Below, piece after piece: positions 3,968 to 35,617 of a DNA stretch of 64,000 nucleotides. Positions within the stretch are counted from its first letter, which is position 1. Each line of letters begins with the position of its first letter. A model generated the notes under the pieces. It searched no databases and had not been told where the DNA came from. It worked only from the letters and a program-made list of their open reading frames with translations. The position numbers were made by a program, and so were the translations under genes. Origin of the DNA: Amia ocellicauda (taxonomy: Eukaryota; Chordata; Actinopteri; Amiiformes; Amiidae); contig NC_089868.1 in the NCBI RefSeq assembly GCF_036373705.1, forward strand, positions 15,296,520 through 15,360,519, read 5' to 3'.

Positions 3968-4852
3968 CACCGATCAGCCATAACATTATGACCACTGACA
4001 GGTGAAGTGAATAACACTGATAATCGCGTTATCATGGCACCTGTCAGTGGGTGGGATATATTAGGCAGCAAGTGAACATTTTGTCCTCAAAGTTGATGTG
4101 TTAGAAGCAGGAAAAATGGGCAGCGTAAGGATCTGAGCGACTTTGACAAGGGCCACATTGTGATGGCTAGACGACTGGGTCAGAGTATCTCCAAAACTGC
4201 AGCTCTTGTGGGGTGTTCCCGGTCAGCAGTGCTCAGTACCTATCAAAAGTGGTCCACGGAAGGAAAAGCGGTGAACCGGCGACTGGGTCATGAGCGGCCA
4301 AGGCTCATTGATGCACGTGGGGAGCGAAGGCTGGCCCGTGTGGTCCGATCCAACAGACGAGCTACTGTAGCTCAAATTGCTGAAAAAGTGAATGCTGGCT
4401 CTGATAGAAAGGTGTCAGAACACACAGTGCATCGCAGTTTGTTGAGTATGGGGCTGCGTAGCTGCAGACCAGTCAGGGTGCCCATGCTGACCCCTGTCCA
4501 CTGCCGAAAGCGCCTACAATGGGCACGTGAGAATCAGAACTGGACCACGGAGCAATGGAAGAAGGTGGCCTGGTCTGATGAATCACGAGTTCAAGGTGTT
4601 GACTTGGCCTCCAAATTCCCCAGATCTCAATCCAATCGAGCATCTGTGGGATGTGCTGGACAAACAAGTCCGATCCATGGAGGCCCCACCTCGCAACTTA
4701 CAGGACTTAAAGGATCTGCTGCTAACGTCTTGGTGCCAGATACCACAGCACACCTTCAGAGGTCTAGTGTAATCCATGCCTTGACGGGTCAGGGCTGTTT
4801 TGGGAACTACACAATGTTAGGCAGGTGGTCATAATGTTATGGCTGATCGGTG
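3968..4852 (+). mobile_element. Tc1-like DNA transposon, internally deleted copy 1
   Basis: An 885-bp element is bounded by TA dinucleotides (3966-3967 and 4853-4854), the target duplication of the Tc1/mariner superfamily. Its terminal inverted repeats begin CACCGATCAGCC. It carries a plus-strand transposase relic. The closely related copy at 58618-59498 has the same internal deletion. Confidence 0.92.
4112..4834 (+). pseudogene. Tc1-like transposase relic
   Basis: The N-terminal part keeps a paired-type helix-turn-helix region ([18 protein letters not shown], then AVLSTYQKW) and reaches the first catalytic aspartate in WSDES. The sequence then jumps, out of frame, to the region around the last acidic residue ([16 protein letters not shown], frame starting near 4527). 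The stretch that normally holds the second catalytic aspartate is missing. A frame disruption also lies near the original ATG (about 4114). The protein cannot be active. Confidence 0.85.
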
Positions 4853-26609: not shown

Positions 26610-29600
26610 TTGCTATCTCTAGCTAGTGGATTAATACGGATTTTTTTCTTGCTGCTGAAAACTTATTAATTTGACTTGATATGTTTCATATAACCAGGCT
26701 TATCAAGAGAAACTAGAAACATATAGGATTAATTTAATTAATTATTATTTCTCCCTATAACTACATCTTTGCTCTGTTTGAAGTTTGAACCATTTCTATG
26801 TCAGAGAAACTGGTGTTATGTCAGCAAATCATGAACTAATATCCTAGGTACAACTAACAGCTAAACAGTGTCATGGATTGATAGCCATGCTATGTGTGAG
26901 TTAAATTATTGTCTTTTACCTGTCTCAGGACAGCCTGAGGGTTTTGTTGGAAGCAACAAAGGCCAACTCGCACTTTATACAATATGATTTTTTTTTTTTT
27001 TTACAGCATTACAGGGTGCTTAAAATGAGTCATATTTTTTAAGTGTTTTGACTGTGGCTCATTATAGCAATATAGCAGAGTGTCAGAAAAACGATTTAAC
27101 TGAGGAAAGCTTCTGTGGAGAAACTAGTGAAAGATCATAAGAGCTGTGTTGTCAATGCCATGTCACTGCCTAACTGAAATTAACAGTACAAATTGAGCCA
27201 GAAGCCCATGTCCCTGGTTGAGATGAAAATAGAGAGTTAAGAGGTTTAACGCACTGAAATCCTCAAGAGACACACCCCCATACGAGTATATGCCAGGGTT
27301 TATTAAAATGAGTTGAATGACAATCACAGCTTTTCTTCTCATTCTCTGTGCTACACCAAGACTCAACTTTTACAGATACCAAAGAAAGAGGACAAGAAAT
27401 TACATGGTTGACCTGAGCCAGAGAGCCTTAGTAGGATCATATCAAATAAATACTGAATTAAATGGCATTGTTTCAGAAAAGACATTAGCACTTGTGGGTT
27501 TGGTGCCAATGCAATTAATTCAAGTTTTTTCAGTGTCTTTTAATGAATGTACACAGCTAAGATGAGGCTGTCAATAGTTGTCTTTGCAATGTGGAACAAG
27601 GTCTTAAAGCTGAGGTCTACAGCTGTTGTGTGCGTGTGTGAGCGTCATCTTGTTTGTTTGAAAGTGAGCTTTTTGTATATGGTGAAAAAGCAGATGTTAT
27701 TTCTTGCTGTGATGTAAATCGCTGTACTTTTGCTTTATTCAGTGATTCGTTTGGAATATTGTTACTGTTCTGTGAGGATGAGAAACAAAATTGTTTCCCT
27801 GGCAGCTGGCAGCTAAATTGATGGAAACTTTTTTTTAAATTCATAGTAGCTATTGTTGTTTTACACATTATTTTATATTGTGCCATTCATACTGTGGATA
27901 TCTTCAATAGCTCCAATCTAAGATCTCACCACCTCCAGCCTTATTCTACCATCCTAGGCAGTCTCTAACTAGGTAAGATTTTGTAGCCAGGTGTACAGAG
28001 TTAAAATGCACAGACTCCTGCAAAGATTTATTCTGCCCAGCTATCACATTTCACAGGGAGAGTATGCCCATATTGCCCTAATTGACCTTTTCTGCCTTTT
28101 AATAAGTTGCTTATGCAAATGAGGTGAATCATTCAACACTTAAAAAAAGACACTACTAGCCCTTTCTGCTGTGGCTTGTGTGAACTTCAAGGAACAGGGA
28201 TGGATGATTACGTGTCTTTTTTTTCTTTACAACTTCAATTTTCCTTAAATTTTCTTCCCTTCTTTGTTCTCTAACATTTCATGTGTGGCTTTTGATTAGT
28301 TGACAATCAGATCATTAATTTCTTCTCTATTGTTATTTGTATGTGTTATTTGAATATTTATATTATCTAACAATCTGAATATGATATTCACCTAAAACGA
28401 TATGATGCCAATATTGCCACTGAACTTTGATCACAGGGGAATGGTTCTGTAAGTACAACAATTCAGTATCAATCTACAAGATTGGATCCAAACTTGAATG
28501 TCCTGTAAATTGCTTTTCTTGTGTGTCCTGCTATTGAGGAGCATAAACTGATTTTGCCACTTTCCAGACATCTTCGATAATATGTTTATTACAGTATCAG
28601 AACACTGCTTTGTTTCATTGACACTATATTTGAATATGGTTTGGATTTCTTGAATCTCTCTGAGGGCTTATTTGATTGCTTACCATCTCCCCTGTCAATC
28701 CTGAGCCCACTCCTGGCCTTTTAAGCTATCTTCAGATAAATATGAAATGGAGAAAACTAATCATCTTATCCTATAGCAACAATAGGTCAGTTTTGTGGGG
28801 ATTCTGTGTGTAAGTATGAGAGACAAATTTTACAGAGCTTGAATTGACATATTTTGGCAGTATGCAACATACTATTAAATACTGAGGATCAGTTCTAATG
28901 TGGATCTCTCGGACAAAAAAAAAATACATCAATGAGCCAAACTGAACTACTAACAGGAAAACAGCGGTTGCATGGTAACTGCTGATACTCTTTTATTGGT
29001 TGTGACTGCTGGCTTGTTCAGTCAATGCATTCCCAGCAGTATTCAATAATACAACTGTCACTTAAGACTCTCCTACACAGTCCACTTGTCAAAGTGGATT
29101 AAGAATATATTGCCATTGTCAGCAAATAATTATGTGTGTTGTGGTCAATGACAGCTTGTCATTAACTCTTTGCCCCTGTTCCTGTAAGTGTGTGTCAACT
29201 ATTATCTTTGAAATTTTTGGAAAAACAAAAAAATTGTATTTTCTAGTCAATAACCTGGAAACCTCTCTAAAATGGAATGAGGGGATTTCTGGAAAAGATC
29301 AATATTATACTTTGAAGTTTTGATGAATTATTAGGATTTAATGGGCAGGCATTTCATTTCAGTTTCTGAATGCTAAAGTACACAGCTGCTTTAATAATCC
29401 TGAAAAGGCTTCAATGTGATTGTTTTAAATCAAGACAGATGGCAGATTAAAAGATCTGCTCTGTGTAGATCACATATAAGAATGAGTTTACTGAATTATG
29501 TATGGCCCATGGTAATGCCAGTAGATGAACATTCTGCTTGGACAGGGATCTCAGGTGAGGATGAATAATTGTGTTGAATTTCTCAGTAATCTGCTCTATC

Positions 29601-29680
29601 ATTTGTTCATTGATTTGAAGTGTGTTGTGCAGGTAATTCTCCTGTAATCACCGGAGTGTCCAGACAGTCCTGGAGAGTTG
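26610..29680. other. AT-rich spacer, nothing recognised
   Basis: No supported exon or RNA gene. A poly-T tract lies at 26989-27003. Confidence 0.5.
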
Positions 29681-29688
29681 ATCAGTCT

Positions 29689-29694
29689 TTTATT
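29689..29694 (-). terminator. Polyadenylation signal for the repeat-protein gene
   Basis: AATAAA on the minus strand, about 55 nt past the proposed stop codon at 29751-29749. Confidence 0.6.
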
Positions 29695-29748
29695 GATGAG
29701 ACAATAAGAACAATCAGGTTCTGGTGTAAAACTTTTTAATCTGTGCTT

Positions 29749-31543
29749 TCAGAGATCGGTTTCCTCCACCTCTGAGTCTTTTCCCCAAAATTTGGATTGC
29801 TGCAGGAGGACCTCCTCAAATGTCATCTCCCAGCAGACCTGGTTCTCTGTGGGGCTCTGAATAAACCTCCAGGTCACCTCCAGGTCATCCTCCTCATCGT
29901 ACTCTTTCATGTCCTCGTCATCCTCCTCCAGTATAGACGGGAGGAAGGGCTCGCACAGCCTCTGCCTATCCTGTTGGTGGCTGAGGGCAGCAGGGTGATA
30001 CTGGAGACCCTGGGGGGTAACGGGGTAAAGAGGTTGATTTAGATGATGTTAAATACTTTCATAAGCACGCCCTGCAATAAAGTGTTCGCAGATGATGCAG
30101 AGGAAGCTGTTGCTAGTCGTTGCTGTGCCCTCTCAGCGGCAGGTATCTTTTCTAGCAGCTTGATCTAAGAGAGATATGTGGCACATAAAATACACAAAAT
30201 ACACACTCCAATACCTGAAGCTACGTGTGCTCTCCATTTGTCTTCTTCATAATATTTCTAATAGAAAATATGAATAATGTAATCTATTTCAACATTAAAT
30301 AATACCTGGTTACATTGTACAGGAGGACTCTATGACTTTGTCCTGATAATGTAATGCGCTCAGTGACTCACAGTGCTGGTGTCGTCCCCATGCTTCTCCA
30401 GGGTGTCCCGGCACGTCACACTGTCAGCAGGAGGACAGGTTTCAGGCTCTTCCTCCTCATTCCCCTCCATTATTGTTGGGAGGTACGGCATGCCCAGCTT
30501 CCGCCAATCCTGCTTGTGTCTGCAGGTCACACTGTTCACCACGGTGTCATGGACAGGGGGACAGGTTTCAGGCTCTTCCTCCTCATTCCCCTCCATTATT
30601 GTTGGGAGGTACGGCATGCCCAGCTTCCGCCAATCCTGCTTGTGTCTACAGGTCACACTGTTCACCACGGTCTCATGGGCAGGGGGACAGGTTTCAGGCT
30701 CTTCCTCCTCATCCACCTCCATTATCGTTGGGAGGTATGGCATGCCCAGCTTCCGCCAGTCCCGCTTGTGTCTGCAGGTCACACTGTCAGCCATGGTGTC
30801 ATGGGCAGGTGGACAGGTTTCAGGCTCTTCCTCCTCATCCACCTCCATTATTGTTGGGAGGTACGGCATGCCCAGCTTCCGCCAATCCTGCTTGTGTCTG
30901 CAGGTCACACTGTTCACCACGGTCTCATGGGCAGGGGGACAGGTTTCAGGCTCTTCCTCCTCATTCCCCTCCATTATTGTTGGGAGGTACGGCATACCCA
31001 GCTTCCGCCAATCCTGCTTGTGTCTGCAGGTCACACTGTTCACCACGGTCTCATGGGCAGGGGGACAGGTTTCAGGCTCTTCCTCCTCATTCCCCTCCAT
31101 TATTGTTGGGAGGTACGGCATGCCCAGCTTCCGCCAATCCTGCTTGTGTCTGCAGGTCACACTGTTCACCACGGTCTCATGGGCAGGGGGACAGGTCTGA
31201 GACTGGAGGGGCTTCTGAATACTCTCCTCGACAGTGCTGGTTCTGCTTCCTGGCATTACAAATGCTTTCATTTAAAAGTCATTGTTATAGTTTGTGTCGT
31301 ACATTAAAATTAAAAAGAGAATATTATTGTGAAATTACAGGTTATTAAACCTCTTAAGAATATGAATATATGTATGGACACATTTGTAAGTAGACAGAAT
31401 CGCTCACCTGTGAAGGAAGGAACATTTTTCTTGACAATACAGCAAGGAAAGAGCTTTATGAAGCCCCGTAGGCCTGCTGCCACACTCTTCCTCTGCTTCT
31501 TTTCCTCCTTCATGACAGCACTGCGACTGGGTTTCTGACCCAT
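29749..31543 (-). CDS. Unrecognised gene: predicted acylated acidic tandem-repeat protein, 460 aa
   Basis: I do not recognise this gene. Four exons join in phase: 31543-31408 (ATG, phase 1 donor GTGAGC), 31249-30372 (donor GTGAGT), 30164-30057 (after a TCTCTCTTAG acceptor) and 30009-29749 (TGA), 1383 nt in all. The start MGQKPS fits the N-myristoylation rule (Gly2, Ser6). A basic stretch (KEEKKQRK) and FPCC follow at about residues 12-38, so membrane attachment by myristate and palmitate is plausible. Residues 64-315 are six 42-residue repeats (TCPPAHETVVNSVTC, then HKQDWRKLGMPYLPTIME, then EEEEPE), with a seventh partial copy to 338. Residues 375-460 contain a diverged copy of the core and a strongly acidic tail. 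The intron between the last two exons would be only 47 bp, so that junction is the weakest part. Function unknown. Confidence 0.7.
30400..31195 (-). repeat. 126-bp coding tandem repeat, six full units
   Basis: Units recur exactly every 126 bp (for example, ACAGGT at 30435, 30561 and 30687), so the frame is preserved. Units differ by a few substitutions, such as GN versus VD before the Glu run, and one unit has DTMAD instead of ETVVN. Length in whole codons and near identity suggest recent unequal exchange under coding constraint. Confidence 0.95.
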
Positions 31544-31589
31544 TGCAGAAGTCGATATACAGATGTCGTTCAAATTCAGTAAATAATCA

Positions 31590-32060
31590 ATTTATTCAAT
31601 AAATAATTGGTAAGTAATAATTCAGTAAATAATAAATGCAATTGTTAAATAATTAGGAACTAAATGATTAAGTAAATAGTAAGTGCAATCGGTAAATTAG
31701 GAACTAAATGATTAAGTAAATAGTAAATGCAATCGGTAAATAATTAGGAACTAAATTATTAAGTAAATAGTAAATGCAATCGGTGTATAATTAGGAACTA
31801 AATGATTAAGTAAATAGTAAATGCAATCGGTAAATAATTAGGAACTAAATGATTAAGTAAATAGTAAGTGCAATCAGTAAATAATTAGGAACTAAATGAT
31901 TAAGTAAATAGTAAATGTAATCAGTAAATAATTAGGAACTAAATGATTAAGTAAATAGTAAATGTAATCCGTAAATAATTAGGAACTAAATGATTAAGTA
32001 AATAGTAAATGTAATCAGTATATAGGAAGTGAATAATTCAGTTAATAGTAAATTCAATAG
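31590..32060. repeat. AT-rich 47-bp minisatellite
   Basis: Repeats of AGGAACTAAATGATTAAG begin at 31655, 31699, 31746, 31793, 31840, 31887, 31934 and 31981. The period is 47 bp except for one 44-bp step. Degenerate half-units extend on both sides. The array starts within about 50 bp upstream of the start codon of the unrecognised minus-strand gene, so it occupies its 5' flank. Confidence 0.93.
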
Positions 32061-32768
32061 TTAATTAGAAGTAAATATTTCGGTAAATAGTAAATTGTGT
32101 AGATAAATTGCTGTAAGTCTCAAGTAGGTCAGTATTGAATCAATTCCACTGCAACTCTGCTCCTTCTGACAGGCTGGACACAGTGACATCATAACACCTC
32201 AGCATTCTATAATGACATCACAGCACATCAGGAAATGTACATACACAAACAACTGTGTTCCATAGGAGAAGTCAATTTAGTTAATTTTATTTCCAATTAA
32301 TGGACCTTATTCTGCAGGAATAGCAACTATTTATGTGTAAAACTGCAGCAATAACTGCTATGTGTTGATTTCAGAAATTATCGACTTGGCTCCCATATTC
32401 TTCCAGTTCTTCTGTCTTTTTTATGACAAAACTGTTTCAGGCTTATTTTTTTTATAAAAAAAAGACTAATTGATCACCATTGAAGAAAAAGGTGTAGTCA
32501 TGGTTAGAAAAAAAAAATCTGAAACAATTCTAAATACTGACACTTTGATGAATCAAGCCCAATATCCCTAATCAGCTGAGCAAGTTTAAGTCTCTAACTG
32601 GCAAGAGATCTTTTCAGTATGCTTTTCATGTCAATGACAAACTAACTTCATGTTTACTAGCCTCCATTCTGCTAATCTGGTGTTTGGTTTTAAGTGGAAT
32701 AAATCTGCTAAAATCTTGTTACACAATCAAAACACAGTTATCATGCTTGTTTTTTTAATATTTTAATG

Positions 32769-35160: not shown

Positions 35161-35617
35161 CAGTGAGGGAAAAAAGTATTTGATCCCCTGCTGATTTTGT
35201 ACGTTTGCCCACAGACAAAGAAATGATCAGTCTATAATTGTAATGGTAAGTGTATTTTAACAGTGAGAGACAGAATGACAACAAAAAAATCCAGAAAAAC
35301 GCATTTCAAAAAAGTTATAATTTGATTTGCATGTTAATGAGGGAAATAAGTATTTGACCCCTTCGACTTAGTACTTGGTGGCAAAACCCTTGTTGGCAAT
35401 CACAGAGGTCAGACGTTTCTTGTAGTTGGCCACCAGGTTTGCACACATCTCAGGAGGGATTTTGTCCCACTCCTCTTTGCAGATCCTCTCCAAGTCATTA
35501 AGGTTTCGAGGCTGACGTTTGGCAACTCGAACCTTCAGCTCCCTCCACAGATTTTCTATGGGATTAAGGTCAAACGTACAAAATCAGCAGGGGATCAAAT
35601 ACTTTTTTCCCTCACTG
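35161..35617 (-). mobile_element. Tc1-like element, short, with near-identical terminal repeats
   Basis: A 457-bp element is flanked by TA (35159-35160, 35618-35619). Its terminal repeats start CAGTGAGGGAAAAAAGTATT and agree over roughly 47 bp. A related internal copy (GAGGGAAATAAGTATTTGAC near 35339) gives the inverted-repeat/direct-repeat arrangement of Tc1 elements. The minus strand of 35375-35580 still encodes a transposase C-terminus ([13 protein letters not shown]..., ending in GFATKY). The rest of the transposase is deleted, so it is non-autonomous. Confidence 0.92.

Follow-up and report, generated by a model that had tools for sequence, protein, structure and literature searches.

A gene on the minus strand of the window (the whole stretch of DNA analysed here, 64,000 nucleotides long) encodes a tandem array of six near-identical units, and every unit, together with a divergent copy in the last exon, carries a match to the docking motif of the phosphatase PP2A-B56. 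We propose that its product is a rapidly evolving, mostly disordered, lipid-anchored protein whose repeats would serve as PP2A-B56 docking sites, gathering or sequestering the phosphatase at a membrane. We give this reading a probability of about 50%. The gene belongs to a family that recurs across the genome, and the array is absent from its members seen outside a single contig (C25).

Short linear motifs are usually studied singly. If B56 is bound, this family would be a case in nature where tandem duplication has increased the valency of docking, alongside older relatives that possess one site. The natural variants, carrying two, six, six and seven array units, could then be used to relate valency to phosphatase recruitment or sequestration, and a gene family devoid of Pfam domains would gain a predicted biochemical activity.

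Gene structure and recurrence in the genome

Four minus-strand exons sum to 1383 nt and encode 460 amino acids and a stop. Exon 1 (31408..31543) starts with MGQKPS and continues with a basic stretch, KEEKKQRKS, and the residues FPCC. Exon 2 (30372..31249) holds six 42-aa units plus a partial seventh. Putative exon 3 (30057..30164) contributes 36 codons and could be skipped without a change of frame, and exon 4 (29749..30009) supplies a divergent unit with LPSILE-EDDED, an acidic C-terminus and the stop. The splice donors read CAG/gtgagc, ACT/gtgagt and AAA/gtattt, and the acceptors end in gccag, cttag and ccccag. The polyadenylation signal AATAAA (29689..29694, minus strand) lies 55 nt beyond the stop, counted to its first base at 29694, and ATTAAA occurs at 29740-29735 on the same strand. 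An earlier, sequence-only reading of this DNA had described the in-frame splice chain, the polyadenylation signal and six 42-aa repeats, and each of these is present.

The gene model of that reading stands up, apart from a weakness at exon 3: the four-exon chain closes at the window locus, but exon 3 is not general across paralogs. Coding potential was scored with codon usage trained on 770 window codons (one of the six chosen training pieces was left out, having stops in the frame taken) and compared with 3000 stop-free null windows. Exons 2 and 4 clearly exceed the null, their scores being equalled or beaten by seven and 52 null windows respectively; exon 1, equalled by 195, does so less convincingly, and 632 scored as high as exon 3, which is thus not above the null. 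Exon 3 is open in all four C25 paralogs, and its region found no match in the C21 and C3 copies. In C9 the corresponding segments measure 118 and 123 nt and, in a third copy that contains stops, 124 nt, lengths that do not preserve the frame. Both flanking borders are in phase 0, and exon 2 could consequently be joined directly to exon 4 in frame. It is doubtful that exon 3 is a real exon.

The array itself says less about coding than had been supposed. Tandem Repeats Finder gives a period of 126, 6.1 copies and 95% matches, and 15 distinct single-base variants occur among the six units, so that the 126-bp units are not exact, as the sequence-only reading had described them. Nor do open units by themselves argue for coding selection, as it had claimed: the unit lacks stops in each of its three antisense frames as well, and open frames over the array therefore prove little. 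Conservation of unit length proves equally little, because a non-coding-looking array of 47-bp units keeps its length too. This second array is an AT-rich minisatellite (31600..32058, minus strand) lying directly upstream of the ATG.

Evidence for coding comes instead from outside the array, for example from a divergent seventh copy of the unit that lies in frame in exon 4 (HQQDRQRLCEPFLPSILEEDDED) and had been overlooked. Among 2818 six-frame window ORFs of at least 15 aa, the exon-4 ORF ranks second against the unit core, behind the array, with a score reached by none of 5000 shuffles. The array unit and the exon-4 copy are identical at 11 of 26 residues, including H, QD, L and P. Their DNA is identical at 54 of 78 positions (69%, exon-4 copy against unit 1) with a pN/pS near 0.76, for which reason this pair alone shows no constraint. 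Across the six window units, synonymous variants are in excess in the gene-strand frame (p 0.041) and in none of the other five frames. In the unit core the excess amounts to four of five variants in the window array (p 0.009), and weakens to four of nine over the 21 units of the four C25 paralogs (p 0.11).

Related loci were sought by protein and DNA searches of the 988-Mb genome assembly, and the counts of loci are lower bounds. They occur on at least seven contigs (C1, C3, C9, C21, C22, C25 and C27). The exon-4 core is present in 26 of the 29 distinct loci examined, the exceptions being two C27 loci and one C22 locus. Exon 1 recurs in the C9, C21, C3 and C25 paralogs with length differences between clades that are multiples of three. 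In nine modelled copies from three clades (C9, C21 and C25), chosen for matching splice sites, exons 1 and 2 join stop-free with phase kept, exon 1 being 136, 223, 241 or 244 nt long and exon 2 134, 137, 878 or 998 nt. The view that this is a real coding gene is thereby upheld.

Searches for known relatives returned little. Pfam showed no domain in a one-unit version of the protein or in three paralogs, besides a sub-threshold ESR1_C match. The whole protein scored against PF14669 (Asp_Glu_race_2) with an E value of 1.1e-10, but with no passing stretch, and neither single units nor the one-unit protein matched; since single units do not match this domain, the score is a sum of weak scores over the repeats. 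An automatic annotation could take this artefact (30427-31196, whole protein) at face value. Sequence searches of the PDB gave chance-level matches only (E 0.44 to 7.2). Two collections ill-suited to a vertebrate gene yielded no pattern match among viral contigs and 11 matches, none confirmed, among prokaryote genomes. Literature searches on the unit peptide strings LPTIME, YLPTIM, DWRKLG and FLPSILE returned titles unrelated to the protein, and the synteny passage retrieved from the literature concerns RAD54L2, not the window locus.

Candidate PP2A-B56 docking sites

According to the portions of the literature drawn on here, the B56 docking motif is [LMFI]xx[ILV]xE, in which L and I are the best residues and negative charge at positions 2, 7, 8 and 9 is favourable; a published rule counts D/E/S/T minus K/R at these four positions and needs at least one where L and I are perfect (papers cited, here and below, as a set: PMC11954910, PMC6715587, PMC7305164, PMC7108865, PMC5586252, PMC12102759, PMC6214654, PMC10970375, PMC7327492, PMC4570685).

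On the minus strand of the window, LPTIME occurs six times in the array: at 31095..31112 and 30969..30986, followed by GNEEEE; at 30843..30860 and 30717..30734, followed by VDEEEE; and at 30591..30608 and 30465..30482, again followed by GNEEEE. The exon-4 unit has LPSILE at 29926..29943, followed by EDDEDM. Judged by sequence, all seven sites match the PP2A-B56 docking motif; the sequence-only reading had not identified the repeat. The strict form L..I.E is found in seven of seven, each with at least two acidic residues in the next four. Applied by hand, the published rule gives a score of 1 for the four GN units, 2 for the two VD units and 3 for exon 4, and all of them qualify. The four GN sites possess one acidic residue only at the scored positions, which tells against B56 binding.

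The combination of features is rarer than the motif. There are 14 strict matches in the 270 window ORFs of at least 60 aa, and these seven are the only ones with two or more acidic residues in the four positions that follow. Of 200000 shuffles of one unit, 1600 contained the strict motif and 31 combined it with the acidic tail and the basic stretch. Shuffled exon 4 contained the strict motif in 6874 of 200000, again a point against B56. The basic stretch, RHKQDWRK or RHKRDWRK, lies five residues before LPTIME in all six array units, whereas the exon-4 site has only two Arg upstream. In the cited work, a basic stretch at most about 15 aa N-terminal to the motif strengthens binding in a subset of ligands (KIF4A, NHS, AIM1 and RepoMan).

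The motif also recurs among the paralogs. Of 26 loci, 20 match its strict form in exon 4 and 22 its relaxed form; in the arrays of the four C25 paralogs, the strict form fits 20 of 21 units and the relaxed form all 21. Over nine copies, the stretch LPSILEEDDED has seven invariant columns of 11 (L, I, E, E, D, D, D), the highest number among the 22 windows of this width that could be scored in exon 4 (hypergeometric p 0.0097), a test made on nine chosen copies without the C21 copies reading LPTIMA and with a window picked with the motif in mind. Four C21 loci (L031-L034, 21.70-21.80 Mb) read LPTIMA and have lost the key Glu; in at least one of them, L031, exons 1 and 4 are otherwise open. L034 also has an altered exon-1 donor.

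The N-terminus suggests where such a protein might reside. At a protein start, the PROSITE myristoylation pattern is MG-{EDRKHPFYW}-xx-[STAGCN]-{P}. The window protein, starting MGQKPSR, fits it, as the sequence-only reading had proposed for MGQKPS, and so do 19 of 24 loci; the others read MGQKNR (two), MGQKPR (one) and MDQNH(S) (two). L043 and L044 (C9) start with MDQNHS instead of MGQ and are therefore predicted to have lost myristoylation. The C9, C21 and C25 copies continue with a basic cluster, after which C9 and C25 have CC and C21 a single Cys, the lack of CC there being a point against the proposed reading. AlphaFold2 returned mean pLDDT values of 43.0 (exon-2 ORF) and 61.0 (exon 4), from single sequences without alignment, where low pLDDT is consistent with disorder and is not proof of it.

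Together, these features suggest the following mechanism. N-myristoylation of Gly2, with probable palmitoylation of the exon-1 CC, would place the protein on a membrane. Within a unit, LPTIME would sit in the LxxIxE groove of B56, flanked by two charge contacts: that of the basic stretch (RHKQDWRK) with the acidic patch of B56, and that of the acidic run with basic residues past the groove. Several PP2A-B56 holoenzymes could thus be gathered at the membrane by the six sites of the array and the one in exon 4. The outcome would be either locally raised dephosphorylation, or phosphatase held away from other partners, as by a tandem inhibitor; the present results favour neither recruiter nor sink. 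The sequence-only reading had already suggested a membrane-tethered multivalent scaffold, and PP2A-B56 is a specific candidate for its partner.

The closest parallel is artificial. In the cited extracts, the engineered ligand LPTIHEEEEE binds B56 with a Kd of 80 nM, and tandem LxxIxE copies inhibit PP2A-B56 with a potency that rises with copy number. The engineered inhibitor and the protein described here have in common tandem copies of L-P-T-I-x-E, each leading into an acidic run, and are predicted not to need phosphorylation of the motif. They differ in that the inhibitor has four copies on a soluble tag, whereas six plus one copies occur here in a natural gene; position 5 is M rather than H, GN or VD precedes the acidic run, and each unit has a basic stretch, in a protein with a lipidation-type N-terminus.

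Natural ligands, as described in the same sources, offer partial likenesses. KIF4A, NHS, AIM1 and RepoMan also possess a basic stretch N-terminal to LxxIxE, and the AXIN1 peptide YLPTLNEDEE is close to YLPTIMEVDEE here. However, these five peptides have one motif each, none is an array of near-identical units, and the likeness noted here is one of motif and flanking residues. GRA18 of Toxoplasma, a disordered protein said to carry two LxxIxE motifs, recruits PP2A-B56, but is secreted by a parasite, has only those two motifs and binds GSK3 and beta-catenin too. Liprin-alpha1 resembles the proposed role in bringing B56gamma to a membrane-associated platform via one LxxIxE-type motif, MPTISE; it is, however, a large scaffold with other domains, and the passages cited show one motif and no tandem array.

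We speculate, somewhat more tentatively than for docking as such, that the protein is a naturally occurring PP2A-B56 trap, multivalent and membrane-anchored: from a family with a single ancestral docking motif, one branch would have copied this motif into another exon and gained six or seven additional sites by amplification. In this joint reading, duplication would have reproduced the layout of the tandem inhibitor made in the laboratory, and copy number varies among paralogs.

The alternative that survives best, which we nonetheless hold to be rather unlikely, is that the protein is real, lineage-restricted and lipid-anchored, and that its repeat serves as a charged spacer or binds a partner other than B56, with a merely coincidental match to LxxIxE. 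The shuffles of unit and exon 4 yield the strict motif at the frequencies given above, and LxxIxE was picked out post hoc from the hundreds of short motifs that are known. Array and exon 4 also share residues other than those of the motif, as listed above, and the LPTIMA loci on C21 do without its Glu. Coincidence explains less well why the exon-4 positions kept over C9, C21 and C25 are L, I and E and then E, D, D and D, which are the B56 determinants of the cited work, when the C9 copies differ from C25 over most of the upstream core.

Constraint, decay and the origin of the array

The family contains broken copies. On C25, three loci are open over their full length and the fourth is frameshifted in exon 4 by an insertion of 10 nt; stops interrupt exon 1 of both C3 loci and also occur at three C1 loci. 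The sequence-only reading had named stops or frameshifts at related loci as grounds for rejecting a gene. They occur at these two C3, three C1 and one C25 loci and not at some others, and broken and unbroken paralogs together fit a family with intact and decayed members.

Rates of substitution were estimated over exons 1, 2 (with the array cut out) and 4. Between clades, dN/dS is 0.58 (95% interval 0.37-0.92) and 0.55 (0.35-0.86) for two C9-C25 pairs, 0.61 (0.37-1.00) for C25-C21 and 0.78 (0.53-1.14) for C9-C21; over this range of 0.55-0.78, the bootstrap interval lies below 1 in two of four pairs. Three within-clade pairs range from 0.71 to 0.97 with intervals that span 1, and exon 1 alone exceeds 1 (1.49 for C9-C21, 1.90 for C9-C9). 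On these estimates, the protein is fast-evolving under modest constraint; like the weakening of the synonymous excess in the unit core, this counts against the docking proposal.

Such numbers raise the question of a decaying duplicated gene fragment, in which the array would be a minisatellite open by chance and the protein would now have little or no function. The stops and the exon-4 frameshift fit this, as do the within-clade ratios of about 0.7-1.0 and a region prone to tandem duplication, as the adjoining 47-bp array indicates. Decay would not, however, leave an obvious reason for three C25 loci to be open throughout, for the between-clade length changes of both exon 1 and exon 2 to be multiples of three in the nine modelled copies, for C9-C25 ratios whose intervals stay below 1, or for a synonymous excess in the gene-strand frame alone. 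We consider this explanation improbable. That the family belongs to, or spreads with, a mobile element is very improbable indeed: copies do lie on at least seven contigs with similar introns and upstream minisatellite DNA, a Tc1-like element adjoins the copy in L011, and a window repeat at 32.47-32.75 kb adjoins some other copies on their other side, but retained introns speak against retroposition, the shared edges differ between copies, the C21 copies sit in a 20-kb tandem array with ZP-domain sequence that looks like segmental duplication, and inverted repeats were not found within window positions 29000-32500.

Under the docking reading, the ancestral protein would have had the one exon-4 site, which the C25 group multiplied in exon 2. 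In the six modelled C9 and C21 copies, exon 2 is 134-137 nt long and has no room for the array, which was also not seen in L013 (the only C1 locus in which exon 2 was seen) or in the C3 loci. All of these copies without the array carry the exon-4 unit. Because exon 2 outside C25 is too short to hold it, the array probably multiplied later. Its core shares 95% identity over 62 bp with exon 4 of the C1 locus L019, but only 69% with exon 4 of its own gene. The probable source is a segment of exon-4 type that was copied into exon 2 and then amplified, a direction that we infer from these comparisons. The four C25 loci now carry two, six, six and seven array units, plus one each in exon 4, the two-unit copy being frameshifted.

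Neighbouring DNA

DNA resembling the 47-bp minisatellite also lies upstream of the C3 and C21 copies, and may therefore be an old part of the promoter region. The window repeat at 32467-32754 is upstream of the gene here, and on the 3′ side of the gene in L011, L019, L025 and L030. At 23.01-23.11 Mb of C21, six ORF copies matching Pfam ZP-C (E 2.2e-5; L050:8384-8812), spaced about 20 kb apart, are interleaved with five near-identical copies of the gene, forming a co-amplified tandem array.

Elsewhere in the window, Tc1-like transposase remnants lie at 4097-4831 and 35371-35583 (HTH_Tnp_Tc3_2, E 1.3e-17; DDE_3, E 0.002, under its cutoff). A GC-rich 38-bp minisatellite at 1350-2252 adjoins a rhodopsin-family GPCR exon at 105-1163, which we take to be PTGER4-like.
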